This document shows, piece by piece, positions 3,258-26,935 of a stretch of 64,000 nt of DNA. Made by a program: the position numbers and the translations under genes. The notes below the pieces were generated by a model. The model saw nothing but the letters and a program-made list of their open reading frames with translations. It had not been told where the DNA came from and did no database searches. Position 1 is the first letter of the stretch. Every line of letters starts with the position of its first letter. The DNA is taken from contig CAJXLF010000008.1 of the NCBI GenBank assembly GCA_913055805.1, forward strand, positions 62,001-126,000, read 5' to 3'. This stretch comes from an uncultured Salinisphaerales bacterium (lineage in GTDB: Bacteria > Pseudomonadota > Gammaproteobacteria > Nevskiales > CAJXLF01).

Positions 3258-3683
3258 ATGAAAAATCTGGTCTATGTGCTTGTATACAAGATAACGGCAA
3301 CGGTGCTGGGTGTATGTGTGCCACTGATGCTGTTTCCTGTTTCGTGGCTCAGCGCGTTAGGTGTTCCCGAGCAGGAAAGCTACATGTTCATCAGGGCCCT
3401 GGGCGTGGCTTATCTTGCGCTTTGTGTTGGGTATGCCTTCGGCCTGGCTGAGGCGTTGCAGGGGCGGCGCATGTTATCGGTTATCTGGATGGGCATCGTC
3501 AGCAATGCTGGCGCTTGCCTGGTGTTCACGATCTACGGGCTCCAGGGTGACTGGAATGACTGGCCGTATCTTTCCCAGCTATATGTTTGGAGTATCGCCG
3601 CTACGGCAGGTCTGATCACACTCGGTTTGGTGTTGACGGGTTTGAAGGCGCCTGCCCATGAAATTTCATATGCACGCTCCTGA
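3258..3683 (+). CDS. Small four-helix membrane protein of unknown function
   Basis: About 141 residues with four hydrophobic helices (near residues 4-24, 42-62, 72-90 and 105-128) and a short polar tail. I do not recognise a family with confidence. An ATG at 3252 is also in frame, but the AGGAG ribosome site at 3247-3251 fits the ATG at 3258 better (six-base spacing). It begins ten bases after the monooxygenase stop and ends 40 bases before the CocE-type gene, so it is probably part of one operon. It may be a membrane partner or small transporter for the oxidation product; no motif supports that directly. Confidence 0.7.
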   Translation: MKNLVYVLVYKITATVLGVCVPLMLFPVSWLSALGVPEQESYMFIRALGVAYLALCVGYAFGLAEALQGRRMLSVIWMGIVSNAGACLVFTIYGLQGDWNDWPYLSQLYVWSIAATAGLITLGLVLTGLKAPAHEISYARS

Positions 3684-3725
3684 GGCCAGCAACAACGTCC
3701 AATCAGGCCGAGAACCGGACTAGCC

Positions 3726-7011: not shown

Positions 7012-7607
7012 CATATAACAGAAAAGGCCGTCTTGCCCGTGCGGACGAATTGACTGCAGACATTCTCGATTCAGTGCTGGAACTGGTCGAGGAAATGGAC
7101 GTTGCAGACGTGAATCTGGAACTGGCCGCAAAGACCGCAGGCGTCAGTGTTCCCACGATCGTGCGCAAGTTCGAATCGAAAGATGGTCTTTATGCCGCTG
7201 CTTTCGCACGTGCGCGCCTTCTCTACAAACCCGAACGGGAGCGGTCACCTGCTGATACGGATGTCGCCGCATTTCTGGTGCGCGCCCAACTGAGTATCTA
7301 TGAACGCTGGGGGCACGCCTTGATCTACCTGCGTACTCGGGAACGGCAGTGGCCGACCGTGCACGAAGAACTGGAAAAGGGCCGCATTGAGCGCCGGCGT
7401 TGGCTCAAGGTGATTCTGGCAGAGATCCTCGATACGAAGATGCTCTCCAATGATCTGGTAGATCAGGTTTTCGCATTGACCGATGTGCATTTCTGGGCGG
7501 TATTCCGCCTCGATATGGGCTCTGGGAAAAAACGTACTCAGGCAGCAATGGAACATGCACTTCGAACTTTTCTATCCAGGCAAAAAAATCCGGGAGACCC
7601 GACATGA
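6999..7607 (+). CDS. TetR-family transcriptional regulator upstream of dienelactone hydrolase
   Basis: A 202-residue regulator with an N-terminal helix-turn-helix at about residues 15-60 (LAAKTAGVSVPTIVRKFESK, with phenylalanine after the recognition helix). The C-terminal region is a generic ligand domain with no name I can give. The stop overlaps the start of the dienelactone hydrolase by four bases (ATGA), so the two are translationally coupled. An inverted repeat overlapping its promoter suggests autorepression. The start chosen is the ATG at 6999; no clear ribosome site precedes it, which fits a leaderless or nearly leaderless mRNA. Confidence 0.85.
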   Translation: MSTRPYNRKGRLARADELTADILDSVLELVEEMDVADVNLELAAKTAGVSVPTIVRKFESKDGLYAAAFARARLLYKPERERSPADTDVAAFLVRAQLSIYERWGHALIYLRTRERQWPTVHEELEKGRIERRRWLKVILAEILDTKMLSNDLVDQVFALTDVHFWAVFRLDMGSGKKRTQAAMEHALRTFLSRQKNPGDPT

Positions 7608-8350
7608 GCAACACTGAGCTGGAAACTATTCAGGGTGTAAAGGCACCCATTCCGCTGGAAATATTCAAACCTGCAGGGGAGGGGCCGTGGCCGGCGGTGC
7701 TCGTGATCCACGAACTGCTGGGGCTCAACAACGATATTCGCCGCATTGCCGGTCGCTTCGCGGAAAACGGTTATCTGGCTGCCTGTCCCGACCTGATGGC
7801 GGATGGCGGACGCATCGGCTGTATTCGTGCCGCGGTTGAATCATTACGCAAGGGCGAAGGACCACAGGTGGCTCAGCTTGAGGCCGGGATCAAATTACTG
7901 CGTGGGCGTGCAGATACGAGCGAGGTCGGCGTTGCCGGCTTCTGCATGGGTGGAGGGTTTGCAACCCTGCTGGCTACGCGTGTACCACTGGGAGCGGCGG
8001 CTGTTTTTTACGGGGATATAAGACCTTCGGAAGAGCTGAAACAGGCCTGCCCGATTGTTGCCGGCTACGGTGGCAGGGACAAGGGCTTTCGCGGCAAGGG
8101 CAAACGTCTGCAGCAACGGCTCACGGAATTCGGTATTCCCAACGATGTGAAGATCTATCCGGAAGCGGGTCACTGCTATATGAACAAGGCTGTGCCCGGG
8201 TTGCTGGCACCCCTGGTTCGTCCCCTGATGGTGGTGGATTACCATGAGGAGGCTGCTGAGGATTCATGGCGCCGTATGTTGACCTTCTTTGCAGAGCACC
8301 TGGCATCTGGGCAGTCTGCCGCCGTTGGCTCACCAGGGATAGCCGTATGA
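7604..8350 (+). CDS. Dienelactone hydrolase family protein
   Basis: A 248-residue cytoplasmic alpha/beta hydrolase. The DLH signature is complete: HELLG near residue 36 with the conserved Glu37, GFCMGG with nucleophile Cys114, Asp159 in GGRDKGF and His190 in AGHCY. Dienelactone hydrolases open lactone rings in modified ortho-cleavage pathways, and many relatives act on other lactones or esters. A Cys nucleophile is the hallmark of true DLH-like enzymes rather than ordinary esterases. It is coupled to the tetR gene upstream. With monooxygenase and SDR genes nearby a lactone intermediate is plausible, but the substrate is unknown. Confidence 0.87.
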   Translation: MSNTELETIQGVKAPIPLEIFKPAGEGPWPAVLVIHELLGLNNDIRRIAGRFAENGYLAACPDLMADGGRIGCIRAAVESLRKGEGPQVAQLEAGIKLLRGRADTSEVGVAGFCMGGGFATLLATRVPLGAAAVFYGDIRPSEELKQACPIVAGYGGRDKGFRGKGKRLQQRLTEFGIPNDVKIYPEAGHCYMNKAVPGLLAPLVRPLMVVDYHEEAAEDSWRRMLTFFAEHLASGQSAAVGSPGIAV

Positions 8351-8417
8351 TGCCCATGTAAATCATTGCTACGGTATCAAGCTGTCCTCTGATGATGCGG
8401 TGGTGCAAGATAGATGC

Positions 8418-9338
8418 ATGACTAAGGAAGTACGATCTTCGGTATTCGAGCACTGTCAAAACAATCTGTTATCCATCCCTGCAGATTTATTCAAGATGTC
8501 GGATGTGGAGGAAGTGGGCACTGCAGGGCGATCCAGTATTTTTTATAAAGACCTGACGCAGGATCTCGTTAATATCGAATTTGTTTCTCAATTACCTTGC
8601 CTGGTGCATGTGCTGTCTGGCGAAGAGGTGATCACCAGCAGCAGCAACGAACGCTATGTACTGACTTCCGGGTCAACGATTTTATTTCCTGCAGGTATAT
8701 GCCTTTATTCCGATTATGTGGGAAAAGGCACGTCTTTGAACGCCTATCTTCTGTTCCTGGGAAATGACGTGGTTGAGAATTTTCTGCCTGGCCGGGAAAA
8801 CATAATCAGTAATATGGGGGCCAACACAAATGACAGCCCGCTACCTCTCCGTACCAGCGAGGTACAACTGGCCTTTTACCAATCACTTGCCAATATGCGA
8901 AGGGAAATGCGCCAATCCGCAGAGTTGCTTAAGGTCAAGCTGATTGAATTGCTTCATCTTGTAGCATTGGAGAACCACACAGCAGATTTCTACAAGAGGT
9001 TACACAGCTCTGCCAAGGGGTATCCCAGGAGAAATATTAAACGCCTGGTTGAACAATACGCCTGCTCCGATTTGAGCGTCAGGGATTTTGCGACCTTGTC
9101 TGGCCGCAGTCTTTCCAGTTTTAATCGTGAGTTCAAACGGCTTTTTGACACCACCCCGAAACAGTGGCTCATTGATCGCAGGATGAAAAACGCACATGAG
9201 CTGCTCGTTACTGGCGAGCATTCGGTGACGCAGGTTGCTGCCAGTCTTGGTTATACGAATGTTTCGCACTTTATCGAGGCGTTCAGAAAGCGTTATGACA
9301 CGACACCTTTCCAGCTCAGAAAAGAAATTGACTCATAA
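8418..9338 (+). CDS. AraC-family regulator, ExsA-like N-domain
   Basis: A 306-residue regulator. Residues about 45-130 resemble the cupin-like N-domain of ExsA-type proteins (PCLVHVLSGEEVITSS, then TSGSTILFPAGIC). The C-terminal AraC domain has VRDFATLSGRSLSSFNREFK as the first helix-turn-helix and the signature VTQVAASLGYTNVSHFIEAF. GTG codons at 8400 and 8403 are in frame but the ATG at 8418 is the simpler start; ribosome sites are weak for all. It sits between the DLH gene and a small ABM-like gene. It may control either; its effector is unknown. Confidence 0.83.
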   Translation: MTKEVRSSVFEHCQNNLLSIPADLFKMSDVEEVGTAGRSSIFYKDLTQDLVNIEFVSQLPCLVHVLSGEEVITSSSNERYVLTSGSTILFPAGICLYSDYVGKGTSLNAYLLFLGNDVVENFLPGRENIISNMGANTNDSPLPLRTSEVQLAFYQSLANMRREMRQSAELLKVKLIELLHLVALENHTADFYKRLHSSAKGYPRRNIKRLVEQYACSDLSVRDFATLSGRSLSSFNREFKRLFDTTPKQWLIDRRMKNAHELLVTGEHSVTQVAASLGYTNVSHFIEAFRKRYDTTPFQLRKEIDS

Positions 9339-9855: not shown

Positions 9856-10548
9856 ATGTCTGCTTCCAGAAAATCGACGGCACGTACGCCGAATCAGGCG
9901 AACACACGAGAAAAGCTGATTCTTTCAGCGCTCAAGCTGTTCGCCGAATATGGCGTAAACGGCGTATCGATCAACCAAGTTGTAACCGACGCCAAGGTAC
10001 TGAACCGTTCCGCCGTTATTTATCACTTTGGTAATCGCGAAGGCTTGCTTCGTGCCATCGTCGAGCGTATTGCAGAAGAGCTGAAGCCGCTTCAGGAGCA
10101 AATGCTGCGAGAGCTGGATGAGGATGCGGAGAATCCACCGGGCGTGAAGGAGCTGATGGTGGCGCTGCATATGCCGGTGATGTCGTTGTTCCTCAGGAAT
10201 GAGTTCGGCCGTAATGCCGAAAAGCTATTGTCCCGGATGACCTGGGAGTTTGGCGAAGCCGGGCAGACCATGATGGTCGAAGTGTTTGGCCCTTATCTGT
10301 TTGAAATGGCCGGACGTATGCAGAAGCTGCTGCCCGATAAACCCCGTGACGAGTTACGCCTGCATTTCATGCTGAGCATTAACAATCTGTTCCACAGTCT
10401 GGCGGATATCGACCTGCTGCGGCGCACGCTCGGTAGCGAAGAGGGCGGTAAGATGAGCAGCAAGCGATTCCGCGAGGAAAGTGACAAGCTATTCAAGCAA
10501 TATCTCGATTTCCAGATCTACGGCATGGCCGGCAAGTACCTGAAATAG
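9856..10548 (+). CDS. TetR-family transcriptional regulator, probable master repressor of a scattered regulon
   Basis: A 230-residue regulator. Residues about 20-67 are the helix-turn-helix (VSINQVVTDAKVLNRSAVIYHF). The long C-terminal domain (about 75-230) is helical and ends in a basic and aromatic tail, FREESDKLFKQYLDFQIYGMA. A perfect palindrome sits just upstream, and no ribosome site is evident, so a leaderless mRNA is possible. The last 281 bases of coding sequence plus 61 bases beyond the stop are repeated at 20500-20841, where they form only a tail relic. Because its likely operator also precedes the multiheme cytochrome and a DUF1302 barrel gene, it is a good candidate to control those genes, which is inference from motif sharing. 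Confidence 0.87.
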   Translation: MSASRKSTARTPNQANTREKLILSALKLFAEYGVNGVSINQVVTDAKVLNRSAVIYHFGNREGLLRAIVERIAEELKPLQEQMLRELDEDAENPPGVKELMVALHMPVMSLFLRNEFGRNAEKLLSRMTWEFGEAGQTMMVEVFGPYLFEMAGRMQKLLPDKPRDELRLHFMLSINNLFHSLADIDLLRRTLGSEEGGKMSSKRFREESDKLFKQYLDFQIYGMAGKYLK

Positions 10549-10609
10549 GCGTTTAATCTGCAGTGTTAAAGCTACGAGGCAGACGTCTCTTCAGCGACAG
10601 CTATTTATT
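10268..10609 (+). repeat. 342-bp direct repeat, left copy (3' part of intact tetR)
   Basis: Matches 20500-20841 with a constant offset of 10232 bases and no gaps. About 21 differences were counted by hand, roughly 94 percent identity. Most coding differences are at silent positions. The 61 bases after the stop differ at only one site. The two copies bracket the 10.6-20.3 kb catabolic module. Confidence 0.88.
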
Positions 10610-10713
10610 AAACCGATGGTGTGGTCGTACAAGCAGATGCCAGCGAGCTTGAATGACGGTGTCGGTATGTCAGCCGCTGCCGCCAGCCAGAAAAGTACCA
10701 TTCCCCCTTGTGT

Positions 10714-11346
10714 CTATTTGATCTGCATCTGCGTAGCAAGCAGCTTATGCCAGGTGTCCAGTCCGGTTTCGATGGCTCCGTCTGGTAGTAAGTGGGCGTC
10801 CAGTGCCATGCCCCGCAAAACCCATCGCGTCAGCACCATCATATGCGCCACCCCATCCACAGCTTCTGGCTTGGGTGCAAAGTATTGCTCGGTGATAATG
10901 GTAAGGCTGCGCTCGAGATGTTCGGCGTTAGTTTTCAGCGTTTTTGCAAGCTCAGCGTCCTGGCGACTGGCGACTAAAAGTTCCAGATAAACCTTGTTTA
11001 CGTCACTATCGAAAAATTCTTTCCAGATGCTGGATACAAGGCCGTTCAATGGGTCTTCCGAGTTACGCAACCCCTGGATCAAAACTCCAACGCGATCGTA
11101 GACTTTCGTCGTCAGATATTCGGCAGCTTCCAGGTACATAGCGTTCATGGAAGGGAAATGGTGCGACCATGCGCCACGTGATACCCCAGCCTTTTCCACG
11201 ACCTGACTTACGCGGGTTCCTGCATATCCGTATTTCGCCAGGCACACCAGAGTGGCTTCAAGAATTTTTTTGCGCGTGGCTTCCTTACGTTCGGCATGGC
11301 TGCGTCGTTGTGGAGTGCGTGTTTTCGTGTTTGCGGTTGTCGACAT
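10714..11346 (-). CDS. TetR-family regulator divergent from the esterase/GH3 operon
   Basis: A 210-residue regulator with a long basic N-terminal arm (RRSHAERKEATRKKILEAT), then a helix-turn-helix at about residues 45-65 (VSQVVEKAGVSRGAWSHHF). The C-terminal part (FFDSDVNKVYLELLVASRQD, TRWVLRGMALDA) resembles the TetR_C family of regulators of degradation genes. It is divergent from the esterase at 11559, and a perfect 14-bp palindrome lies between them. It most likely represses the esterase-GH3-SDR-DUF1302-DUF1329-CMD operon. A ligand cannot be named. Confidence 0.86.
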   Translation of the reverse strand: MSTTANTKTRTPQRRSHAERKEATRKKILEATLVCLAKYGYAGTRVSQVVEKAGVSRGAWSHHFPSMNAMYLEAAEYLTTKVYDRVGVLIQGLRNSEDPLNGLVSSIWKEFFDSDVNKVYLELLVASRQDAELAKTLKTNAEHLERSLTIITEQYFAPKPEAVDGVAHMMVLTRWVLRGMALDAHLLPDGAIETGLDTWHKLLATQMQIK

Positions 11347-11450
11347 CCTGTGACTCGCTTGAATAGCTTTTGCTGATCATAACTGCTCAAGGCATAGACC
11401 CAACAATTCATTTCATTTGACAAGTATGCAGTATCCGTGAAAATATAAAA

Positions 11451-11464
11451 ACCGTACGTACGGT
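11451..11464. promoter_or_regulatory. Perfect 14-bp palindrome, likely TetR operator
   Basis: ACCGTACGTACGGT is fully self-complementary and lies between the tetR gene on the minus strand (start 11346) and the esterase (start 11559). The shape and location are typical of a TetR-dimer site controlling divergent genes. Confidence 0.72.
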
Positions 11465-11558
11465 CTGTAAATACATTAACGCTGTACAGACACCGCGCAA
11501 GGTGGACAGACCGGTGAAAAGGTAAATGTACGGCACAAAGCGAATGAGGAGACTACAA

Positions 11559-12770
11559 ATGCGCTTCAATACGGTTAATTCAGCTTGGGGTCTATTGGCT
11601 GCTGTTTTTAGTTTGGTGGTTGCAGAGGCCAGCGCAACACCTCCGTTCAGTTACTACGATTCAGCAGATATCGACGTGCAGGGTGTTCCATCCCAGGTTG
11701 ATCTCGATGGCTCAGGCACTATTACAGGCGCGGAGGCCAGATTGTGGGATGTGACCATGATCACTCCGTCAATATTCGTTGCCGGAACCAATCCGCCCCC
11801 TCCACCTGCCGTGAATCCTGTCAATGTCCCCATCAAAGTGCGTATCTACCTACCCGAGGGTTACGCAGCGCAGCCTGCACGGAATTATCCGGTTCTGTAT
11901 CTGTTGCATGGAGGCGCCGGCAGCTACATAGACTGGTCAAAAACCGGCAGTTCGGGTGGCGATATTGTGTCAACCATAGGCGCTTCTCCATTCGACGGTA
12001 TTGTTGTCATGGTGGAAGGTGGTCGGGCTGGCTGGTATAGCGACTGGGTCGGGGAAACCGATGGTCATTTCTCGCCCAAGTGGGAAACCTACCACGTCGA
12101 GCAACTCGTTCCCTGGGTTGACAGTAATTTCAGAACCATCGCCGAACGCAGTGGCAGGGCTATTGCCGGACTGTCCATGGGCGGCTTGGGCGCGATGCGC
12201 TATGCCGCGCGTTATCCGTCAACCTTTTCGGCCGTCGGGTCATTTTCCGGGGCCGTAGAAATGCGCTACGAACCCTTCCAGGACACCGTGAGCAACAGCA
12301 TGTGGTTCTACGGAGCCACTATAGGTAACCAGGGCCAGTTTCAGTCGGAGTACCGAATGACTTTCGGCGGCTTCCCTGAAGAGGAAGAGACCGACAGGTT
12401 GGAGGCAATTTTTGGTCCTACGACATCGCCGCAGCCCGGCGCCAGTCATTGGCCGGAAAATCAGCCCGGATGGCCGTCCGTCAATCCTGTACAGCTTGTT
12501 TCTTCCTACTATGGCTACAGCGGCAAGATGGCGATTTACTCGGGGGATTCGCTTGTCTGGTGGGATGGTGGTGAAGAAGACATCGTCAACATGAACAATA
12601 CCTTTCACGAGGCGCTCAAGGCCAATGGTGTCGTTCACCGCTACTGCCGGGGCTTTGGAAAACACGAGTGGGGTTACTGGAAGAAGGACCTCATAGATTT
12701 CCTTCATTATGTATACGGATCCACCCCCGCCACCTGTACCACTAACAGCGGCTGGTCTCTGGTTCCGTAA
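11559..12770 (+). CDS. Secreted esterase-D-type hydrolase with an EF-hand loop
   Basis: A 403-residue alpha/beta hydrolase of the PF00756 type. A Sec signal (about residues 1-27, ending SATPP) precedes the mature enzyme. Residues 48-59 read DLDGSGTITGAE, which meets every position of a canonical 12-residue EF-hand calcium loop. The nucleophile is Ser206 in GLSMGG, after PVLYLLHGG at about 111; a late GFGKHEWGYW supplies the likely catalytic His. The ATG at 11559 has a GAGGAG ribosome site; upstream in-frame ATGs are less likely. It is the first gene of an operon and overlaps the GH3 gene by one base (TAATG). PF00756 enzymes cleave carboxylic esters (feruloyl, acetyl, mycolyl and others). Confidence 0.86.
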   Translation: MRFNTVNSAWGLLAAVFSLVVAEASATPPFSYYDSADIDVQGVPSQVDLDGSGTITGAEARLWDVTMITPSIFVAGTNPPPPPAVNPVNVPIKVRIYLPEGYAAQPARNYPVLYLLHGGAGSYIDWSKTGSSGGDIVSTIGASPFDGIVVMVEGGRAGWYSDWVGETDGHFSPKWETYHVEQLVPWVDSNFRTIAERSGRAIAGLSMGGLGAMRYAARYPSTFSAVGSFSGAVEMRYEPFQDTVSNSMWFYGATIGNQGQFQSEYRMTFGGFPEEEETDRLEAIFGPTTSPQPGASHWPENQPGWPSVNPVQLVSSYYGYSGKMAIYSGDSLVWWDGGEEDIVNMNNTFHEALKANGVVHRYCRGFGKHEWGYWKKDLIDFLHYVYGSTPATCTTNSGWSLVP

Positions 12771-15130
12771 TGGTTCGCCGGTTCAACGCTACCGTGCTGA
12801 TTGCAACGCTTCTTGTGGCATGCAACGGGTCTGATGACCCGTTGAGCCCGGGGGGGAGGGCGCCTGGACCCTCTGAAGATGCGCGTTGCGGAAATGCAAC
12901 TGAGCGTGCCTGGTGTGATACCTCGCTCACACCGTCTGAACGCACGGAATTGTTGCTGGCGCAGATGACTCTCCCGCAGAAGATCAGCATGATGGGTGGG
13001 GATGAAGCTCGCTCGCCTGAGCCAGATGCGTACGTTGTACACGGACGCTTGGAAGGTATACCCGAACTAGGTATACCCGATCTCTATATGTCGGATGGAC
13101 CGGCCGGTTCCAATAGCGGCCCGGGTACCGCGTTCCCTGCGCCAGTGGCGATTGGTGCCAGTTTTAGCCGCGAGCTCGCGTATCGTGTGGGTTCAGCTAT
13201 TGGCATTGAAACTCGACATAAGGGTATTGACCAGGTATTGGGGCCGGCAACCGATGTGATGCGAAATCCGTTGCATGGCCGGGTCTTTGAATCCTATGGT
13301 GAGGACCCGTACCTGGTCGGTGAGCTGGGGGCCGAATGGGTGCTGGGCGCACAGGATGAGGGCGTGATTGCCACGGTTAAGCACTACGCCGTCAATACCC
13401 AGGAGGGGCAGATTCAGGCTATCCCGCTTATCCCGTTGGTGGGAATGCGGTATTTGGTTAATGCCCAGGTTGACGAACGCACACTTAGGGAAATTTACCT
13501 GGCAGGTTTCGAGCCTGCTATCGTCAAGGGTCGTGCGGCGTCAGTGATGTGCTCCTACAACCGGGTGAACGGTTCGCCGGCTTGTTCCAGTGAATATTTG
13601 CTGGAGAAGGCTTTACGCGAGGACTGGGGTTTCGACGGCTTCGTTGTTTCTGACTGGTTGACTGCGACCAAGGATACCGTGAACTCGGCGAACAACGGCC
13701 TGGACATCGAAATGCCATCCGGCCTCTGGTATGCACCACAATTGCTGGAACTTGCCGTGCAGACGGGTGCCGTATCCGAAGAGACCATCAATGAACGGGT
13801 TGGTAATATTCTGCGGCCCCTGTTTCGTATGGGTTTTTTTGATCGACAAGCATTCCCGTTTGATCTTGGCGGGGTTGATCGGGAGGCGCATCAGAAAATC
13901 GCCCAGGAGAACGCTGAGCAGGGAATGGTGTTGTTGCGTAACGAGAATCTGTTGCCCATCAACGCGAGTGAGCTGCGGAAGATAGCGCTCATTGGTCGGC
14001 CTGCAGTTCAGTTTCATCGCGGCTATGGGTCATCCGAAGTGACGCCCTATCGCTTCGTCTCATCGCTGGAAGCAATTAGCGAACGGATCGGTCCACAGGT
14101 GGAAGTGGTGTACGACGCAGGGGATGATCCCGCTGCGGCGGCGGCTCTGGCCCAGGATGCGGATATCGCTATTGTGTTCGCAGCTGACCATTCCACCGAG
14201 GGTGTCGACAAGCTTTGCCTGTCACTTGATTGTTCATTGACCGGTCTGCCGCTGGGTGGGCTCCTGAATCCGATCGACGATGAGCTTTTCGCTGACGCAT
14301 CGGCCAGGGACTTCGGCTTACTGTTCTTTGCCTATGTGAAGCGGTTACTTTCCGATGGCCGCCAGGATGAGCTGATATCCGCAGTGTCTGCCGTGAACCC
14401 GCGCACCGTTACGGTGTTAACCGTGGGCGGTCCGGTTCTTACACCCTGGCGAGAGCAAGTAGCTGCAATTCTGGTGCAATGGTATCCCGGACAGGAAGCA
14501 GGCGCAGCCATTGCCAGGGTGTTGTTCGGCGACACCGACCCCGGCGGGCGTTTGCCCCTGACCTTTCCGATGAGTGAATCAGACTCACCTATATACGGAA
14601 ACCCCATGCAGTATCCAGGTGTGCTGGAACACACCGAATACAGCGAGGGCATGTTTATCGGCTACCGTTGGTATGACGCCAATGCCAATGAACCTGCTTA
14701 CCCCTTTGGTTTCGGGCTGTCTTACACCGAATTCGATTACTCGAATCTGAGTATCCAGCCTCTCTCCCAGGCTGAGGTGGGGGTTGAATTCATAGTGTCC
14801 AATAACGGGCTGCGCGCAGGCTGGGCAGTACCGCAGATTTATCTGACGTTGCCCTCTGCACCTCCGGCACTGTTACAGCCCCCAAAAGCACTCAAGGGCT
14901 TCGACAAGCTTTGGCTAAAGCCGGGTGAACAGGCAACCGTCCGTTTTGTGCTCGGCAAGCGCGCCTTTTCCTATTGGGATGTTGATGAAGCGGGCTGGCG
15001 TATACAACCGGGATGCTTCCGCGTACTGGCTGGCGCTTCCTCGCAGGATTTGCCTCTTGAGGCCGGTTTATCAATGAGCCCGGAAGGCCAGGTTACAGAC
15101 GTGGGCTTATGTACTGCGTCAGCTTCCTGA
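12770..15130 (+). CDS. Glycoside hydrolase family 3 beta-glucosidase-like lipoprotein
   Basis: A 786-residue GH3 enzyme. The lipobox is LLVAC with Cys18, so it is probably membrane-anchored. Family blocks are present in order: LYMSDGPAG, ESYGEDPYLVG, VKHYAVN, and the nucleophile Asp295 in VVSDW. The second domain carries NEQ-like EQGMVLLRNENLLP, and the C-terminus has a fibronectin-III-like domain (from about residue 660, PPKALKGFDKLWLKPGEQ). GH3 enzymes remove terminal beta-linked sugars. The gene is joined to the esterase by a one-base overlap and followed by an SDR gene, so it likely deglycosylates a glycoside whose aglycone is oxidised by the operon. The aglycone is unknown. Confidence 0.9.
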   Translation: MVRRFNATVLIATLLVACNGSDDPLSPGGRAPGPSEDARCGNATERAWCDTSLTPSERTELLLAQMTLPQKISMMGGDEARSPEPDAYVVHGRLEGIPELGIPDLYMSDGPAGSNSGPGTAFPAPVAIGASFSRELAYRVGSAIGIETRHKGIDQVLGPATDVMRNPLHGRVFESYGEDPYLVGELGAEWVLGAQDEGVIATVKHYAVNTQEGQIQAIPLIPLVGMRYLVNAQVDERTLREIYLAGFEPAIVKGRAASVMCSYNRVNGSPACSSEYLLEKALREDWGFDGFVVSDWLTATKDTVNSANNGLDIEMPSGLWYAPQLLELAVQTGAVSEETINERVGNILRPLFRMGFFDRQAFPFDLGGVDREAHQKIAQENAEQGMVLLRNENLLPINASELRKIALIGRPAVQFHRGYGSSEVTPYRFVSSLEAISERIGPQVEVVYDAGDDPAAAAALAQDADIAIVFAADHSTEGVDKLCLSLDCSLTGLPLGGLLNPIDDELFADASARDFGLLFFAYVKRLLSDGRQDELISAVSAVNPRTVTVLTVGGPVLTPWREQVAAILVQWYPGQEAGAAIARVLFGDTDPGGRLPLTFPMSESDSPIYGNPMQYPGVLEHTEYSEGMFIGYRWYDANANEPAYPFGFGLSYTEFDYSNLSIQPLSQAEVGVEFIVSNNGLRAGWAVPQIYLTLPSAPPALLQPPKALKGFDKLWLKPGEQATVRFVLGKRAFSYWDVDEAGWRIQPGCFRVLAGASSQDLPLEAGLSMSPEGQVTDVGLCTASAS

Positions 15131-15169
15131 GAGCTATGGCCACGGTATCCACTTGTCAGGAAAATTAAT

Positions 15170-16069
15170 ATGCCCATCACCAGTTTGAACGACAAAAAAT
15201 GTCTGATCACCGGTGCCGCCAGCGGTATTGGCAAAGCTACTGCAATCGCGGCAGCTCGTGAGGGTGCAAGTCTCTTTCTTACCGACATTGATACTTCATT
15301 GCTGGAGCAGTCGGTGTCGGAGATTCAGCAGCAAGGTGGCCGTGTGGCAATGGCGCGGGCTCTTGATGTGGCGGATTTCAAGGCGGTCCAGGCGTTTGCC
15401 CAGTCAATACACCAGGATTTCGGCAGTCTGGACGTTGTGATGAACGTAGCCGGCATTTCCATCTGGGGGACGATTGAAAACCTCAGTCACGATCATTGGC
15501 GACGCGTGGTCGAGATTGACCTTATGGGCCCAATCCACATCATGGAAAGTTTTATTCCCCCCATGATTGAGGCTGGCCGGGGTGGTCATCTGGTCAATGT
15601 ATCTTCCGCAGCCGGCCTGTTCGGATTGCCATGGCATGCAGCCTACAGCGCTGCCAAGTTTGGCTTGCGCGGAGTTTCCGAAGTTTTGCGCTTCGATCTT
15701 GCGCGTCACGGGATTGGCGTAAGCCTGGTCTGTCCGGGCGGCGTGAATACCGGGTTGGTGAAGACCGTCGAGGTTGTAGGTATTGAGCCTGACAACGAGG
15801 AATTTCTGGCCTTCAAGGCACATTTCATGAAGCGGGCGGTAACACCCGAGAAGGCTGCAGCGGCAATTCTCAAGGGTCTAAAGGCCAATCGCTATCTGGT
15901 ATTCACCTCCTTTGATATTCAGTTGATGCACTGGTTCCAGTGCAAGTTATCAGCACCCTATCGCTGGATTATGAAAAAACTGAATGACCGGATGCAGGAG
16001 ATTAGCGCCCCGCTTGATAGGGAACTAAAACAGGAACCCAGGGCTGCAGAGATGAGAAATGATACATAA
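15170..16069 (+). CDS. Short-chain dehydrogenase/reductase (SDR)
   Basis: A 299-residue classical SDR. TGAASGIG at residues 14-21 binds NAD(P), NVAG comes next, and the catalytic Ser and YSAAK motif lie near residues 145-165, with CPGGVNT after it. The C-terminal 60 residues form an extra helical tail, as in membrane-associated or fatty-acyl SDRs. These enzymes interconvert hydroxyl and keto groups. An AGGA-like ribosome site precedes the ATG. It lies inside the esterase-GH3-DUF1302-DUF1329 operon and its end overlaps the proposed DUF1302 start by eleven bases. A role oxidising the alcohol released by the preceding hydrolases is inference. Confidence 0.9.
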   Translation: MPITSLNDKKCLITGAASGIGKATAIAAAREGASLFLTDIDTSLLEQSVSEIQQQGGRVAMARALDVADFKAVQAFAQSIHQDFGSLDVVMNVAGISIWGTIENLSHDHWRRVVEIDLMGPIHIMESFIPPMIEAGRGGHLVNVSSAAGLFGLPWHAAYSAAKFGLRGVSEVLRFDLARHGIGVSLVCPGGVNTGLVKTVEVVGIEPDNEEFLAFKAHFMKRAVTPEKAAAAILKGLKANRYLVFTSFDIQLMHWFQCKLSAPYRWIMKKLNDRMQEISAPLDRELKQEPRAAEMRNDT

Positions 16070-18290
16070 GCGAATGGGGGATGGGCCGGGCAAGAATCAG
16101 AGAGCGGGATACAAGACAGGTATGTTTCATCGGGCAGTGATGGCGGTGTTTCTCTGTTGTACAGCCGCTACAGCATGGAGTTATGAATTCTCCCTTGGTG
16201 ATGCAGACATCTCCCTGAACAATCTTGCCACCATTGGCGCCATGATGCGTATGGAGGCTCGTGATCCGGATCTTGTCGGCAAGAGTAATGCTACCCCGGG
16301 GTTGTGTGTACGCCGGGTATCGTCGGACGGTGATCCGAATCTACGGTTCGAAGGTGATACCTGCTCAACCACGGGGGATGGTTCCGGCAATTTGCGTGCT
16401 ATTGCTGCGCCGGGTGCTTTTTCGGTAAACGGTGACAACGGTAATCTGAACTTTGACAAACACGACCTCGTGCATGCCGCGGCCAAACTCACTAGCGACC
16501 TGACAATTGACTGGAAGAACTCAAGGTTTTTCGTACGTGGTCTGTATTTCTTCGATAACGAATACGAAAACCATGAGAACCATCATCCCGACACCACTCT
16601 GCAGCCCTCACGCTCGAAGTTTCCCCGTGCCGGGCGCGAAACCATCGGTTCGGATTTGCGCCTGCTGGATTACTACGTCAGCAAGAACTTCTACTGGAAC
16701 GAGCGTCCGCTCAGCTTCAAGCTCGGAAATCAGGTGCTCAACTGGGGGGAGAGCGCGTTTTTGGTTTTTAACAGTCTGAACACAATCAATCCTCCCAACG
16801 CCGCTTTATTGAGGTTGCCTGGATTCGATATCAAGGAACTGTTTGAGCCAGTCGGTATGGCGGTCGTCAACGCCGAACTCACTCAGGGCGTGAGCCTGGA
16901 AGCGTTTTATCAATACGAATGGAAGCCTGTGACGCTTGATCCGGTGGGCAGCGTTTTCTCCACCTCCGACTTCATCGGAGACGGCGGCACATACGCCATG
17001 TTGTCACTGGGCAGGGCGCCGGAAGACCCCGGTGGCCGCTACCGACCAATAGACAATCCTGACGACCCCACAGCAGTGGCGGGTTCCACGGCGAGCCGGA
17101 CCTTGCGCCGCACAGCAGACCGGACGCCTGATGATGGAGGGCAATATGGCGCTTCCCTGAGGATGTTTTTTGATGATCTCAACGGCGGCACCGACATAGG
17201 TTTGTATTTCGTTAATTACCACTCACGTATCCCGAGCGTGAGCTTAAAGGCGGCAGAGGCGACCTGTGTACCTGCGGACAGCGGCAATCCAGCAACTAAT
17301 GCTTTGAATCTGATTGCCGCTTGCGGTATTCCACCGAGTAATTTGCTGGCCTCCGTGACCGGTGGGCCATTTCTGGCGGCAACAAACGAGCCGCTGCCGG
17401 TGGATACTGCAACCTTGTTTGTCGAGTATCCCGAGGATATCCAGTTATACGGAGTATCGTTCAACACCACGCTTGGTGATTTTGCTTTAGCCGGCGAGTA
17501 TGCGTACCGGCCTAACCTTCCGGTTCAGATACATGCCATTGATTTGGTGATGGCCTCGGTACAACCTGCTTTTCCGGAAACCGATTTCTCAATTGGTGTG
17601 GCGACATTACCCGGCCGCCGTAGCGCGGCCCCGGATTTTGTGCAGACGAATTACCGTGGTGTGGCGCCGACTGCAGGCATGTACATCCAGGGTTATGAGC
17701 GTCTGAAAGTTGGGCAACTGGGGCTGTCCTTGCTGCGTAGCTTTGGCGCCAGCAACCCCTTGGGCGCTAGCCAGATTGTTACGGTTCTGGAAGCCGGCTT
17801 GACCCATGTGCTGGACTTCCCGGATCTTGATCAAATCCAGTTCCAGGGCGGTATTGCTGATCTGCATATATCCAATGGCGGGGATGGTTCGAGGGGCATC
17901 AATCCGATGGACGTTCGCAGCAACCCCAACGATCCGTCGAGTAATCGCTCCACACCCAATCAACGCCAGAATCCGATGGCACAGGACCCCGATAGTTTTG
18001 GAACGCAGTATTCATGGGGTTACCGCGCTGTGGCACTGACTCGCTATGACAACCTGTTATTCGGTGCCAATCTCGAGTTTCTGACGGCACTGTTTCATGA
18101 CGTGAGCGGTGTTTCCCCCGGTGTAGGGATGAACTTTATCGAAAGCCGCAAGCAGGCTATTGGCGCGGTTCGCTGGGATTACCAGTCAACCTGGTTCGGT
18201 GAGTTTCGTTACACCGCGTACCTGAATAGCAAACTCGACGCACTGCGCGATCGCGACAACTTGATGGTCTCGCTTGGCTATCAATTCTGA
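16059..18290 (+). CDS. DUF1302 outer-membrane beta-barrel protein
   Basis: A 743-residue protein. An early hydrophobic stretch (about residues 28-40) ending AWS precedes YEFSLGDADISLNNLATIG, the usual DUF1302 opening of a short strand after the signal peptide. DNGNLNFDKHD (about 130) and LKLGNQVLNWGES (about 225) are family blocks, and the C-terminus is LGYQF, ending in the phenylalanine recognised by the BAM complex. DUF1302 proteins are outer-membrane proteins often paired with DUF1329 in steroid, alkane or ester degraders; transport is inferred. The ATG at 16059 has a GAGA-type ribosome site; an in-frame ATG at 16122 would shorten the N-terminus by 21 residues and gives a more ordinary signal peptide. 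Confidence 0.87.
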   Translation: MIHKRMGDGPGKNQRAGYKTGMFHRAVMAVFLCCTAATAWSYEFSLGDADISLNNLATIGAMMRMEARDPDLVGKSNATPGLCVRRVSSDGDPNLRFEGDTCSTTGDGSGNLRAIAAPGAFSVNGDNGNLNFDKHDLVHAAAKLTSDLTIDWKNSRFFVRGLYFFDNEYENHENHHPDTTLQPSRSKFPRAGRETIGSDLRLLDYYVSKNFYWNERPLSFKLGNQVLNWGESAFLVFNSLNTINPPNAALLRLPGFDIKELFEPVGMAVVNAELTQGVSLEAFYQYEWKPVTLDPVGSVFSTSDFIGDGGTYAMLSLGRAPEDPGGRYRPIDNPDDPTAVAGSTASRTLRRTADRTPDDGGQYGASLRMFFDDLNGGTDIGLYFVNYHSRIPSVSLKAAEATCVPADSGNPATNALNLIAACGIPPSNLLASVTGGPFLAATNEPLPVDTATLFVEYPEDIQLYGVSFNTTLGDFALAGEYAYRPNLPVQIHAIDLVMASVQPAFPETDFSIGVATLPGRRSAAPDFVQTNYRGVAPTAGMYIQGYERLKVGQLGLSLLRSFGASNPLGASQIVTVLEAGLTHVLDFPDLDQIQFQGGIADLHISNGGDGSRGINPMDVRSNPNDPSSNRSTPNQRQNPMAQDPDSFGTQYSWGYRAVALTRYDNLLFGANLEFLTALFHDVSGVSPGVGMNFIESRKQAIGAVRWDYQSTWFGEFRYTAYLNSKLDALRDRDNLMVSLGYQF

Positions 18291-18306
18291 TTTCCTGGAG
18301 TTGCTA

Positions 18307-19677
18307 ATGTCTGATTTTCGTTACCTGTCTCAAATGGCCATTGGAGCTATTGGATTGGCGCTGTATGCCTGCACCGCCATGGCCGGAGTGTCGCCGGAGG
18401 AAGCACAGCGGCTGGGGCAGAATCTGACGCCCCAAGGGGGCGAGGTCGCCGGCAATAAGGATGGCAGTATCCCCGCCTGGACAGGCGGGCTGACCAAGTC
18501 TCCGGATTGTTACCAGGGTGAAGGCAGCCGCTACTGCGACCCATTTGCCGATGAGAAGCCTTTATTCACCATCACCGCAGCCAATGCAAAGCAATATGAG
18601 CAGCAGTTGTCGGCCGGGCAGTTAGCGATGTTGCGGCAGTATCCTGATTACAGGATGAATGTCTATACGACCCGTCGCACCGTAGCTATTCCGGATTTTG
18701 TTGCCGAGGCCACCAAGCGCAATGCTGTAAACGCCAGGCTCGTCAGTGATGGTGAAGGTATTGAGGGGGCGGCCATTGGCGTGCCCTTTCCGATTCCCAA
18801 GTCCGGGGTTGAGCCGGTGTGGAACCACAAGTTGCGTTATCGCGGCGGCGGCGGCCGGCGCTGGAACAATCAGATACCAGTGCAGACAAACGGATCATAT
18901 GTGATTACCCGGCTACGCGAGGATGTGCGCTTCGAATACAACCGGGCCGGCACAACCCCCGAGTCCCTCGAGAACGTCGCCATATACTTCCTGCAGGTTA
19001 CCATGGGGCCGCCTCGCCTGGCGGGCACTATCGGCCTGATTCATGAAACCATGGATCAGGTTAAGGAAGCGCGCCGTGTCTGGGTATATAACCCCGGCCA
19101 GCGCAGGCTTCGCCGGGCTCCGAGTGTGGCTTATGACAATCCCGGCCAGGGAGCAGACGGGCTGCGCACCAATGATCAGACGGATACCTTTAACGGCGCT
19201 ACAGACCGGTACACCTGGAAGCTACTTGGTAAGCGGGAAATGTACGTGCCTTACAATGCCTACAAGGTGCATTCCGATGAGTACAAGTACAGCGACATCA
19301 TTGGTAAAAACTTCATCAATCCTGAGCTGACACGTTACGAGCTGCACCGTGTATGGGTGGTCGAAGGAACCGTCAAGCCGACGACAACACATCAATATGC
19401 GCGCCGGGTGTTCTATATTGACGAGGACAGCTGGCAGATCGTGCTGGTGGATATTTATGACCAGCGCGGAGAGCTCTGGCGTTGGCAGGAAGCGCATGCT
19501 TTCCAGGCTTACGATAAGCCGTTTTTTGGAACGCCTGCACTGGAGACCGTATACGACCTCAAGTCAAACCGTTATCTGGCAATGGCGCTCAACAACGAGG
19601 ACGAAGAGAGCTTCGAGCAGGATTTTCCCGTTTCATACTTCGACCCATCCAGCGTGATTCGCCACGCATCGCAATAG
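18307..19677 (+). CDS. DUF1329 outer-membrane/periplasmic partner protein
   Basis: A 456-residue exported protein. After a signal sequence (MSDFRYLSQMAIGAIGLALY, cleaved near TAMAG) it shows family landmarks: SPEEAQRLGQNLTPQGGE, GNKDGSIPAWTGGL, and YEQQLSAGQLAMLRQYPDYRMNVY, then RRVFYIDEDSWQIVLVDIYD and LWRWQEAHAFQAYD. These are DUF1329 motifs, a family with a LolA/LolB-like fold. A GGAG ribosome site favours the ATG at 18307. It follows the DUF1302 gene immediately, the usual genetic pairing. The pair is thought to handle hydrophobic substrates at the outer membrane; this is family knowledge, not shown here. Confidence 0.88.
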   Translation: MSDFRYLSQMAIGAIGLALYACTAMAGVSPEEAQRLGQNLTPQGGEVAGNKDGSIPAWTGGLTKSPDCYQGEGSRYCDPFADEKPLFTITAANAKQYEQQLSAGQLAMLRQYPDYRMNVYTTRRTVAIPDFVAEATKRNAVNARLVSDGEGIEGAAIGVPFPIPKSGVEPVWNHKLRYRGGGGRRWNNQIPVQTNGSYVITRLREDVRFEYNRAGTTPESLENVAIYFLQVTMGPPRLAGTIGLIHETMDQVKEARRVWVYNPGQRRLRRAPSVAYDNPGQGADGLRTNDQTDTFNGATDRYTWKLLGKREMYVPYNAYKVHSDEYKYSDIIGKNFINPELTRYELHRVWVVEGTVKPTTTHQYARRVFYIDEDSWQIVLVDIYDQRGELWRWQEAHAFQAYDKPFFGTPALETVYDLKSNRYLAMALNNEDEESFEQDFPVSYFDPSSVIRHASQ

Positions 19678-19679
19678 AT

Positions 19680-20318
19680 ATGACACCTGTTGAACAACAA
19701 CTTGCACCACCTGGCGGTTGGGTCGCCGCGGGCCAGCTGCGTCTTGATCCACTGCCAAAGAATATGATGCATTGGTGGGAACGCGGTCTTGTATGGGCGA
19801 TATTGAAATTCAAGTTTTCGAACTCGGGTATCGATGAGCTTCCTGTGCTTTTTGCGGTTCTAATGCGCCATCGATCTCTGTACTGGTCCTGGTTGCGATT
19901 CGCCGGAAAGTTAATGCCTGGTGGTACGCTGGACAGGCGGGATTCGGAACTGGTGATTTTACGCGTAGCCTGGAACTGCCGCTGCAGGTACGAATGGGGC
20001 CAGCACGTTATCATCGGATTGCAGGCTGGTCTGAGGGCCGAAGACATCGCGCGTATCGCGCATGAGCCCGATGCTGCTGGCTGGGAAAAACATCAGTTGG
20101 CGCTAATGCGCGCGACCGATGAACTATACCTGCACAAACAGATAACAGAGACTACTTGGCGGCAGCTATCGGAACACTACGGTCCCGATCAATTGATCGA
20201 GATCGGCATGTTGGCCGGACATTATGAAATGCTGGCTGGACTGATTAATAGTGTCGAATTGCCGCTGGAAGCATATGCCGAAACTGCACTGGCTCAAGCT
20301 GAAATTCACGGAAACTGA
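19680..20318 (+). CDS. Carboxymuconolactone decarboxylase (CMD/AhpD-like) protein
   Basis: A 212-residue protein with a CMD domain: LDRRDSELVILRVAWNCRCRYEWGQHV (about residues 80-110) carries the CxC-containing segment followed by His. AhpD-like members use paired cysteines and a histidine as a redox centre, while CMD members decarboxylate lactones. It starts two bases after the DUF1329 stop, so it is the last gene of the operon. Distant CMD-domain proteins of about 200 residues are common in such clusters; the true substrate is unknown. Confidence 0.82.
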   Translation: MTPVEQQLAPPGGWVAAGQLRLDPLPKNMMHWWERGLVWAILKFKFSNSGIDELPVLFAVLMRHRSLYWSWLRFAGKLMPGGTLDRRDSELVILRVAWNCRCRYEWGQHVIIGLQAGLRAEDIARIAHEPDAAGWEKHQLALMRATDELYLHKQITETTWRQLSEHYGPDQLIEIGMLAGHYEMLAGLINSVELPLEAYAETALAQAEIHGN

Positions 20319-20499
20319 TATTCCATATCCAGAATTTAAAGAACGCTACAGTGCACCTGGAGAGCGCGGAAAAGTCTTGAATCCGGTATTGCACAATAGG
20401 AAGGGAAAGTAGTGTCGATTCTGCCAGCTCCAGTTCGGCTAGATCATGATAAAGAGAACTGATCGTACTGAGAATTTCCTGAAAGGAGGGAACAAACGT

Positions 20500-20841
20500 C
20501 CATGATGGTTGAAGTGTTTGTCCCTTATCTGTTTGAAATGGCCGGGCGTATGCAGAAGCTATTGCCCGATAAACCCCGTGATGAACCGCGTCTGCATTTC
20601 ATGCTGAGCGTTAACAACCTGTTCCGCAGCCTGGCGGATATCGACCTGCTGCGCCGTACGCTCGGTAGCGAAGAGGGTGGCAAGATGAGCAGCAAGCGAT
20701 TCCGCGAGGAAAGTGACAAGCTGTTCAAGCAATATCTCGATTTCCAGATCTACGGCATGGCCGGCAAGTACCTGAAATAGGCGTTTAATCTGCAGTGTTA
20801 AAGCTACGAGGCAGACGTCTCTTCAGCGATAGCTATTTATT
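20500..20841 (+). pseudogene. tetR tail relic, right copy of the 342-bp repeat
   Basis: Holds only the last 93 codons of a tetR gene closely related to the one at 9856, with the helix-turn-helix missing, plus 61 bases beyond the stop. An ATG at 20502 opens a 92-residue frame with a nearby AAAGGAGGG, so a short peptide could still be made. Upstream (20319-20499) nothing recognisable remains. The right end of the repeat runs into the stop codon of the hxlR gene. Because differences from the intact gene are mostly silent, this piece probably comes from a homolog that was once functional rather than from a fresh duplication. Confidence 0.8.
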
Positions 20842-21178
20842 GGTTCCCGGATCTGCGTTCATCTTTCCACCGCCGGGCCCAGGCAGTTAACTCCAGAAGT
20901 TTGGCGCCAAGCTCCAAACCCAATGGCGTCAGACGATATCCATCGGATGTGCGCTCAATGAGGTCGGCGCTTTTGAGCGTACTTAATCGCCGATTCAGGA
21001 GTGTGGGCGATATCTCATCGCATTGACTGCGCAGCTCTCTGAATCTGAGAGGGCCGTTACGCATCTCCCATAGAATTCTTAATGTCCATTTTTGTCCCAC
21101 GATCTCAAGTAACTCGTTAATCGGGCGAGATGAGGTTGTTTTGCCTTGAGCAGCTTCTGACTTGGGCGGTTTCGACAT
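20837..21178 (-). CDS. HxlR-family winged-helix regulator
   Basis: A 113-residue regulator. PINELLEIVGQKWTLRILWEM (about 21-41), GPLRFRELRSQCDEISPTLLNRRLSTL and ADLIERTSDGYRLTPLG are standard HxlR blocks: the winged helix with the GPLRF motif. HxlR proteins are small dimeric repressors or activators sensing electrophiles or redox state. It is divergent from the CoA-transferase gene, and tandem palindromes lie between. Its stop codon lies inside the tetR-tail repeat, so the 3' end touches a recombination junction. It most likely controls the CoA-transferase/SDR pair. Confidence 0.9.
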   Translation of the reverse strand: MSKPPKSEAAQGKTTSSRPINELLEIVGQKWTLRILWEMRNGPLRFRELRSQCDEISPTLLNRRLSTLKSADLIERTSDGYRLTPLGLELGAKLLELTAWARRWKDERRSGNQ

Positions 21179-21183
21179 AGTGC

Positions 21184-21229
21184 TTGACGTGCTACATAAA
21201 AGGTAGCATGATGCTACACTATGTGTAGC
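21184..21229. promoter_or_regulatory. Divergent promoter with tandem HxlR operators
   Basis: TTGACG (21184-21189) and CATGAT (21207-21212), 17 bases apart, form a plus-strand promoter. Three overlapping inverted repeats cover it: GCTAC/GTAGC (21191-21195 with 21203-21207), GTAGCAT-G-ATGCTAC (21203-21217), and GCTACA/TGTAGC (21213-21218 with 21224-21229). Repeated GTAGC/GCTAC half sites on both strands fit binding of several HxlR dimers. Confidence 0.72.
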
Positions 21230-21250
21230 GATATTTCAAGGGTAAAGACT

Positions 21251-23527
21251 ATGAAATCGGGTGCTTTGTCCAGTGCACGGGTGCTGGATCTATGTGTTTA
21301 CAGGCCGGGCCGTCTTGCAGCAATGCTTCTGTCCGATCAGGGCGCAGAAGTGATTCGAATTGATGGGGGTATTCAGAAAGAAGCGGATGAGGTTTCCGCT
21401 TTTGTGGATAGAGGCAAACGGGTACATCGCTTGTCGGGTCGCGATTCAGTGGCGCAAGCAGTCACAGAACTGGCTTCAGAGAGTGATGTCATTCTATTCG
21501 ATGATTTGAGTGCTCATGGGCTCGCCTATCTTGAGATTGCACCGCTGAGAGATCAGCATCCGTCACTGGTCGTGGTCGGTGTCGGGGTGGTAGATGGAGA
21601 GTTTTCTCTTGAATCAACGCTTGATGATTTGGTCCATGCCCAGACCGGCGTTTTTACCGACATTACATTGTCCGGCGAAATCCTGGGGCTTCCTCCCACA
21701 TATACCTCGTTACCTATGGCGACAAGTTATATGGCGGTTCATGCCGCTATCGCGGCAGTCGCAGGGCTGGTACGCAGGCAAAGATTCGGTTCAGGCGATG
21801 AGATGGAAGTGTCACCACATGCCTCCGTGATGGCGGCTATGGGCAGTGTGCTTTTTCATGCCAGACCACAACCCGTCCGTTACAAAGTCCCGCCCTTGCC
21901 CCCGGCGGTCTCCGCAATATTACCCGTCGCCCGTTTCTTCGTTAGAAATGGCGGACCGTCCATACAGAAAAAGGTCAGAAGGCTCGCAGCGAGCTTCGTT
22001 CCTCCCTTGATGGATTTTTACGCGTGCAAGAATGGCAGGCTGATCTACGTGTTTGCCATGGACCATAGTCGGCTGCCAATGCTTCTGGTTCAGGAGCTGG
22101 GTCTGGAAGCCGACCTTGCCAAAGCCGGCATAAGACTTTCTGATCCTTATCAGGGGCCGGCAAGCCGAGATAACCTGCTGGACGCTGCGATGCTATCGCC
22201 CAGGCATCGAAAATTTCTCAGAAAAAGTATGGCGGCTGCGTTCAAGGCCAATACGGCTGAGCATTGGGAAGATGTTTTGTCTTCAAGGGGAATCCCCTGT
22301 GTCCTGGTAAGAGAAGCCAAGGAATGGAGGCGAGAACCCGCAGTGGTGGAGGGGGGCCTGATGCTTGAGCTGGAAGATCCGCAGTGCGGTCAGATGAGCA
22401 TGCCTGGTTCGTTTGTTTGTGTCGGCGAAGAAAAGGATCGCCCGGTTCCTGTAGCCCGGAATATTAAATCGGGGTCATGTGGATGGGCCGCCAGGGCGGG
22501 GCAGGAAAACAAGGTTTCTGCCATCAGCAGCTCTGCAAGACCGCTGGAAGGCCTGAATATTCTGGATTTGTCGACCATGGTGGCAGGTCCGCTGTGTGCC
22601 CGTACGCTAGGGGAGCTCGGGGCGGAGGTGATAAAGGTAGACCCGCCCAAGCCATTACACGGGCCGCGATTGACTGCCTGGTATGGCATGGAAGTCAGTC
22701 ATGGAAAACGCAGTATCTTGCTTGACCTGAAAAATACCGCGGGCAACGAAGTCTTCGGGAAGCTGGCACAACAGGCGGATGTCGTAGTCCATAACTTCAG
22801 CCAGCCTGCTGCAGAGATGCTCGGCATAGCTGACCTTCAAGACAAGATTCTCTGTTCTGTCAGCGCGTTTCGCGGAACGCGCCCTGGCCCCTGGGACAAT
22901 CGCAAGGGATATGACCCTGTATTGCAGGCGGCGGCCGGCGTTACGACCCGCTTTGGCACAGAAACAACACCCGAATTACACGGGATTGCTTCCTGTGTGG
23001 ATTGTCTGACCGGGTATCTCGGTGCGTTTGGCGTTCTATGTTCGGTTTATAACGCTTCGGCATCGAAGCAGGCGCTGCCGGTATCGGTGTCACTGGCGCA
23101 GGGCGTGGGTTTAATACAGCACCCTTTCCTGTTGCAGCCTGATATACAGGCGGGCACGGGGGATATTCAATGGAAAAAGGAAGGTTACGTCGTGATTTCA
23201 TATGCCCTGGAAAAAGCAGGGATCGACTATGTGCCGGTACTGAACCTTCAAAATATTCAATCGGCCTATTGGAGAGGGGAGGGGCAGGCCGGGGTGCATT
23301 TCACGAAGTACAGCGATCATCCCTGTGGGTCTGAAGTCCTGCGTGCGACCCCGGCCTATCTCCGTGCCAATGCCTGGCGCTTGAAAACGGGCATGCCTTT
23401 CCCCCAGTTGGGGACTGACACGGAATCCGTATTGGCGGCTCAAGGATATTCGGCGGACTCGATTGAAAGGCTCATGCGTGACGGGGGCGCTGCCCGGTCA
23501 CTGGCTGCGGATTATTTACCTGGGTGA
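21251..23527 (+). CDS. Two-domain family III CoA-transferase (CaiB/BaiF type)
   Basis: About 758 residues, double the usual 400 of this family. Both halves begin with the same fold signature: ARVLDLCVYRPGRLAAMLLSDQGAEVIRID near residue 10 and LEGLNILDLSTMVAGPLCARTLGELGAEVIKVD near 440. In the second half GYDPVLQAAAG carries the catalytic Asp; in the first half LDDLVHAQTG occupies the equivalent place. These enzymes move CoA between carboxylic acids, or racemise 2-methylacyl-CoA, in side-chain degradation. The ATG at 21221 lies inside an operator, so the ATG at 21251, after AAGGG, is preferred. The following SDR overlaps it by four bases. Confidence 0.87.
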   Translation: MKSGALSSARVLDLCVYRPGRLAAMLLSDQGAEVIRIDGGIQKEADEVSAFVDRGKRVHRLSGRDSVAQAVTELASESDVILFDDLSAHGLAYLEIAPLRDQHPSLVVVGVGVVDGEFSLESTLDDLVHAQTGVFTDITLSGEILGLPPTYTSLPMATSYMAVHAAIAAVAGLVRRQRFGSGDEMEVSPHASVMAAMGSVLFHARPQPVRYKVPPLPPAVSAILPVARFFVRNGGPSIQKKVRRLAASFVPPLMDFYACKNGRLIYVFAMDHSRLPMLLVQELGLEADLAKAGIRLSDPYQGPASRDNLLDAAMLSPRHRKFLRKSMAAAFKANTAEHWEDVLSSRGIPCVLVREAKEWRREPAVVEGGLMLELEDPQCGQMSMPGSFVCVGEEKDRPVPVARNIKSGSCGWAARAGQENKVSAISSSARPLEGLNILDLSTMVAGPLCARTLGELGAEVIKVDPPKPLHGPRLTAWYGMEVSHGKRSILLDLKNTAGNEVFGKLAQQADVVVHNFSQPAAEMLGIADLQDKILCSVSAFRGTRPGPWDNRKGYDPVLQAAAGVTTRFGTETTPELHGIASCVDCLTGYLGAFGVLCSVYNASASKQALPVSVSLAQGVGLIQHPFLLQPDIQAGTGDIQWKKEGYVVISYALEKAGIDYVPVLNLQNIQSAYWRGEGQAGVHFTKYSDHPCGSEVLRATPAYLRANAWRLKTGMPFPQLGTDTESVLAAQGYSADSIERLMRDGGAARSLAADYLPG

Positions 23528-26908: not shown

Positions 26909-26935
26909 GTGACCTCTCCAGATAACTCGCACAGG

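Follow-up and report, generated by a model that had tools for sequence, protein, structure and literature searches.

Direct repeats of a tetR 3' end around a catabolic gene module in an uncultured Salinisphaerales bacterium: signs of a probable homology-driven insertion

Background

How might a group of catabolic genes come to lie between two copies of the 3' end of one regulator gene? The question is raised by a 64,000-nt stretch of a draft genome from an uncultured Salinisphaerales bacterium (referred to here as the window, whose positions are used throughout), in which an earlier note, made from the DNA letters alone, described a repeated tetR tail on both sides of a set of apparent catabolic genes and proposed that the set had been inserted by homologous recombination at a tetR.

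Results

The repeat pair

Positions 10268-10609 and 20500-20841 of the window are direct repeats of 342 bp at an offset of 10232, with 21 mismatches and 0 gaps (93.9% identity), and similarity drops abruptly at both of their ends. The earlier note was correct in describing this repeat as ungapped and ~94% identical at a constant offset, and in deriving it from the last 281 coding bases of a tetR gene plus 61 bases past the stop codon at 10548. A search of the bacterium's own genome (3,377,251 bases in 21 contigs, 95.7% complete) with the 342 bp gave exactly two matching places; with only these two matches, and with 21 mismatches and no gaps over 342 bp, the repeat is far beyond chance. An assembly or binning artefact might be suspected of a draft genome in 21 contigs, but we regard it as scarcely credible for copies that differ at 21 sites and lie in distinct unique contexts on one 158-kb contig. 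The repeats are tetR 3' ends with two genome copies only, rather than insertion sequences, and the locus thus lacks the make-up of a composite transposon.

The features of the locus are collected in Table 1.

Table 1. Features of the tetR repeat locus, in window coordinates
Feature	Position	Strand	Basis
Intact tetR (tetR-9856), 230 aa, whose 3' end lies in the left repeat copy	9856-10548	+	Pfam TetR_N and TetR_C_30
Left repeat copy, 281 coding bases + 61 past stop	10268-10609	+	Repeat comparison
Module TetR regulator, divergent from the operon	10714-11346	-	Pfam TetR_N; TetR 49% identical at the corresponding position in G040 (L087)
Candidate operator-like site: palindrome ACCGTACGTACGGT and CGGTCTGTAA	11451-11470	+	CGGTCTGTAA common to two G040 divergent intergenic regions
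Esterase (PF00756)	11526-12770	+	Pfam
Glycoside hydrolase family 3 protein (GH3)	12770-15130	+	Pfam
Short-chain dehydrogenase (SDR)	15170-16069	+	Pfam
DUF1302 protein	16059-18290	+	Pfam
DUF1329 protein	18274-19677	+	Pfam
Carboxymuconolactone decarboxylase family protein (CMD)	19680-20318	+	Pfam
Right repeat copy, putative displaced remnant of the 3' end of a sister tetR	20500-20841	+	Open frame 20502-20780, 92 aa, TetR_N absent
HxlR-type regulator, convergent, stop codon inside the last bases of the right repeat	20837-21178	-	Pfam
CoA-transferase family III protein, two matched stretches	21221-23527	+	Pfam

The module between the repeats

The seven inter-repeat genes scanned with Pfam (overlapping antisense ORFs set aside) belong to regulator, enzyme or DUF families only. 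The esterase, GH3, SDR, DUF1302, DUF1329 and CMD genes of the self-contained unit proposed earlier are all present, but the divergent TetR gene had been missed; this gene is probably the module's own regulator, in place of tetR-9856, which the earlier note had counted as part of the module. The EF-hand ascribed to the esterase was not borne out, since the protein matches PF00756 and no EF-hand model at E<=0.001. Judged by its protein families, the module probably handles a hydrophobic ester or glycoside and carries out its initial hydrolysis. The papers listed in literature searches (circularizable elements, DUF1302 with DUF1329, recombination, islands) included precedents for the mechanism and, among those listed, no title on the module. 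Two further Pfam DUF1302 genes occur in the window, at 31065-33458 and 45229-47514, making three with that of the module, and the whole 3.4-Mb genome (G000) contains eleven DUF1302 matches at E<=1e-60.

No integrase or transposase is found among the scanned inter-repeat genes, and no integrase among the scanned genes of the window flanks, so the locus does not have the composition of an integrase island. It does have two features of circularizable elements that lack a recombinase, namely cargo between direct repeats and the absence of a recombinase gene inside. Integration of a site-specific island into the tetR 3' end, with the repeat as its duplicated attachment site, would yield a similar layout and leave the target gene whole. 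We nevertheless consider it highly improbable, for it would need both an integrase supplied in trans and a donor sharing the core, and 342 bp at 94% identity, unevenly diverged, are unlike a short identical core.

Comparison of module and flank codon usage, a check suggested by the earlier note, gave no separation, the seven module genes having the same codon distance as 96 other ORFs (p 0.37). The module is slightly lower in GC and GC3 (p about 0.02), and several flank genes are low too. Codon usage gives no sign of a recent foreign origin for the module.

Relatives of the module and of its flanks

A genome of the same order (G040) contains, at locus L087, a TetR gene 49% identical to that of the module and divergent from an S15-type hydrolase gene, which is followed in the same order by SDR (63% identical), DUF1302 (62%), DUF1329 (73%) and CMD (55%). 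Its second locus, L133, has TetR (47%), S15, SDR (60%) and CMD (53%). The motif CGGTCTGTAA is kept in all three divergent intergenic regions, inside the palindrome in the window and inside an inverted repeat in L087. No relative of tetR-9856 was found in the 20 kb fetched for each G040 locus, which makes tetR-9856 more likely a neighbour of the module than a part of it; except for its tail, this gene also sits outside the inter-repeat unit. The 20 kb around the G040 module contain no direct repeats of at least 40 bp. In another genome (G008), the neighbourhood L097 holds a 300-nt direct repeat (3607-3906 and 4135-4434, 72% identical, spaced 528 bp) near a related SDR-DUF1302-DUF1329 cluster.

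Among ten 20-kb neighbourhoods fetched around relatives of DUF1302 (L087, L097-L105), one has the complete TetR-SDR-DUF1302-DUF1329-CMD set and one more (L097) a partial set, which gives no evidence of a widely travelling module. DUF1329 has matches at E<=1e-140 in 24 of the 369 genomes of a class sample. The esterase is without a match at E<=1e-40 in the 84 other genomes of the order, and the GH3 relatives are located elsewhere than at module-like loci; on these grounds the esterase and GH3 genes seem to be a local substitution for the S15 hydrolase gene. The module gene set is absent from all 16 of the 8-20 kb loci that were fetched for their GH3 relatives (L070, L072-L086).

On the right flank, HxlR and CoA-transferase genes related to those of the window (56% and 41% identical) adjoin one another in genome G064 (L088), where the module is absent. 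The ORF to the left of HxlR in G064 (7503-8711, 402 aa) does not seem tetR-like by length or sequence; with no tetR beside HxlR among the G064 ORFs read, the order tetR-HxlR, assumed to be the original one, has no counterpart elsewhere. Relatives of the CoA-transferase at E<=1e-60 occur in 3 of 85 genomes, the bacterium's own included. Near the CoA-transferase gene lies a gene for a RoxA-like cytochrome c protein (24410-26932, minus strand), and tandem genes for AraC-family regulators with Arabinose_bd domains follow at 28643-29665 and 29701-30720 (minus strand). Farther along, in a 783-aa ORF (53404-55755, plus strand), residues from about 3 to 105 form a MerR-type DNA-binding region and residues 97-738 a DUF6351 tannase-like domain, an unusual combination of a regulator with a hydrolase.

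The search for an empty site

The earlier note had also proposed a search of related genomes for tetR-9856 without the module. No such genome was found, in sets in which the bacterium is the only member of its family. A DNA search of 61 genomes matched two, the bacterium's own and one (G035) with a 29-bp match. In protein searches, none of the 84 other genomes among 85 of the order exceeded 37% identity at E<=1e-20, and one of the 368 others in the class sample of 369 matched at E<=1e-30, with 40% identity. Contigs of GTDB r220 gave 33 candidate stretches, of which one was confirmed (34% over residues 17-92), and the best of 93 plasmid records reached 31%. The closest relatives of tetR-9856 are thus 37-40% identical, with none above 40% in the collections searched; the only further match to the tetR 5' half in its own genome is a 34% paralogue on contig C12. 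With no genome found that has tetR-9856 and lacks the module, insertion is read from the anatomy of the locus.

Divergence of the two copies

As had been noticed earlier, most differences between the copies are silent (14 of the 18 changed codons, the other 4 altering residues), and the 61 bases 3' of the stop codon differ at one site, position 10598. In the shared coding part there are 15.5 synonymous and 4.5 non-synonymous differences (dS 0.33, dN 0.021, ratio 0.064). When 20 random mutations were simulated, about 13.7 altered residues were expected, and 4 or fewer were seen in 0 of 3000 runs, which argues that divergence took place mostly under function. For neutral mutations in the right copy alone, 4 or fewer altered residues arose at a frequency of 0.04 with 10 mutations and of 0.17 with 8. 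Judged by these substitutions, most of the change between the copies dates from a time when both were functional, with a modest neutral phase allowed. The low dN/dS (about 0.06) also supports the earlier proposal that the right copy came from a related, once functional tetR.

The differences are spread unevenly: the first 182 bp have 19 of the 21, the last 160 bp the other 2 (Fisher p 4e-4, for a cut at 10450 picked after the sites were seen), and an identical run of 106 bp lies within the repeat (permutation p 0.008). The single difference in the 61 non-coding bases compares with about 19 expected at the upstream synonymous rate (p 3e-9, independent sites assumed). Structural constraint is no obvious reason for this conservation, since the predicted fold of 10540-10612 is no better than those of shuffled sequences (z -0.59). 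The uneven distribution, the identical run and the near absence of differences beyond the stop codon suggest that the 3' tract was probably exchanged, converted or homogenised after the upstream parts had diverged; such a tract is consistent with crossing-over or conversion close to the stop codon of tetR.

The same tract invites a bolder interpretation, in which the module would be a live catabolic shuttle without a recombinase: the tetR tails would keep recombining, as their near-identical 3' tract suggests, some members of the population would carry a 10.2-kb circle or a deleted state, and the module could pass between the tetR alleles of related species. We hold this to be doubtful.

The pattern of divergence can also be accommodated without any arrival of the module. 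A tetR duplication within the lineage might have flanked it with ancient paralogues, both long functional; the right paralogue would afterwards have been shortened by its 5' half, with the 3' ends kept similar by gene conversion. Such a history would account for the silent divergence, the near-identical 3' tract and the unremarkable codon usage, but it requires a dispersed duplication with downstream similarity ending 61 bp past the stop codon, and a genome with two full tetR copies was not found in the order and class sets, which hold no close relatives. We judge it rather unlikely, though to be taken seriously.

The right copy

The right copy begins abruptly in mid-gene, with a sharp left edge at 20500, and retains codons 139-230 plus the same 61 bp; the DNA-binding part is missing. 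A decayed tetR 5' half in the 181 bp before it was sought and rejected (local score 11.0; mean for shuffled sequences 11.1). Its four replacements (V145, P167, V175 and R180) occur in none of 20 aligned homologues, among which all four left-copy residues are present; by this measure the right copy resembles a remnant in the early stages of decay after its truncation.

It might be argued that the right copy still works, as a 92-residue ligand-binding and dimerisation fragment translated from the ATG at 20502 behind the purine-rich stretch AAAGGAGG, which would pair with and block TetR-9856. An open frame free of stop codons, a low dN/dS and the purine-rich stretch upstream are what such a fragment would show. 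Set against these are the replacements foreign to all 20 homologues, one of them a proline at residue 167 where 18 of the 20 retain leucine, the lack of any Pfam or NCBIfam match for the 92-aa frame, and the long spacing (12 nt) between GGAGG and ATG; moreover, the silent changes can predate the truncation. A working fragment is, in our estimation, very unlikely.

Discussion

Origin of the arrangement

The explanation that we favour, with a probability of about 0.58, is that the module was inserted by homology-driven recombination at tetR and that the right copy is the displaced and decaying remnant of a second allele. A self-regulated module, comprising 10610-20499 with the divergent TetR, esterase, GH3, SDR, DUF1302, DUF1329 and CMD genes, would have arrived between tetR and the downstream HxlR/CoA-transferase genes by way of host recombination guided by tetR homology. 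Of the two related alleles of tetR involved, one resident and one on the arriving DNA, one would survive whole as tetR-9856, and the other as the last 92 codons plus 61 bp, now 10.2 kb downstream and beside HxlR. Two routes can be envisaged: (i) integration, through one crossover, of a circle that bore the module together with a truncated tetR tail, which would duplicate the 3' end, or (ii) homologous recombination of linear DNA with a tetR at the left end, the right end being joined illegitimately to the interior of the resident tetR, whose 3' end would be displaced.

The idea of insertion by homologous recombination at a tetR, as first put forward in the earlier note, is strengthened by the trace of recombination, by the finding that most of the module forms a unit in another genome with this tetR missing beside it, and by the adjoining HxlR and CoA-transferase genes of G064; it draws no help from the search for an empty site or from codon usage. 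The repeat, the truncation, the silent divergence, the near-identical 3' tract and the presence in another genome of a unit with most of the module genes are direct observations, from which we infer the insertion, its direction and its donor. If this explanation is correct, the locus is a readable scar left by the addition to a chromosome of a catabolic operon with its own regulator, by means other than an integrase or transposase and with a regulator gene as the landing place, and the uneven divergence inside the 342-bp repeat tells old allelic divergence from later exchange. The footprint is real and legible, yet ordinary in kind and unsurprising in principle.

Comparison with known systems

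In the E. coli lacZ system (PMC3240628), circles whose homology segment had been shortened integrated by one crossover and left duplications of 109-950 bp. The window resembles that system in the direct duplication of the target gene's 3' end around an insert (342 bp here) and, on the explanation favoured above, in the use of host functions only. It differs in that the E. coli events were engineered and watched in real time, whereas the present case is natural, with copies 6% apart. For the Vibrio type VI and Rhs loci, homology-facilitated illegitimate recombination with displaced 3' ends has been proposed (PMC5361080); on the explanation favoured above, the window would share with them a homology anchor on one side and an older, truncated 3' end downstream of the new module. 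The immunity genes of those loci are often retained, while the remnant described here is a regulator tail without evident use. The unconventional circularizable structures exemplified by the H47 island of E. coli (PMC5426353) likewise enclose, between direct repeats, cargo that encodes no recombinase; the cited work reports excision products and empty sites, whereas no empty site was found for the present locus in the sets searched. As to the cargo, DUF1302/DUF1329 pairs belong to clusters for hydrophobic compounds, an example being AmeA/AmeB, linked to monoterpene metabolism in Castellaniella (PMC6394551). The module shares with it a pair of DUF1302 (predicted outer-membrane) and DUF1329 (predicted periplasmic) proteins, and differs in joining the pair to SDR, CMD, esterase and GH3 genes.
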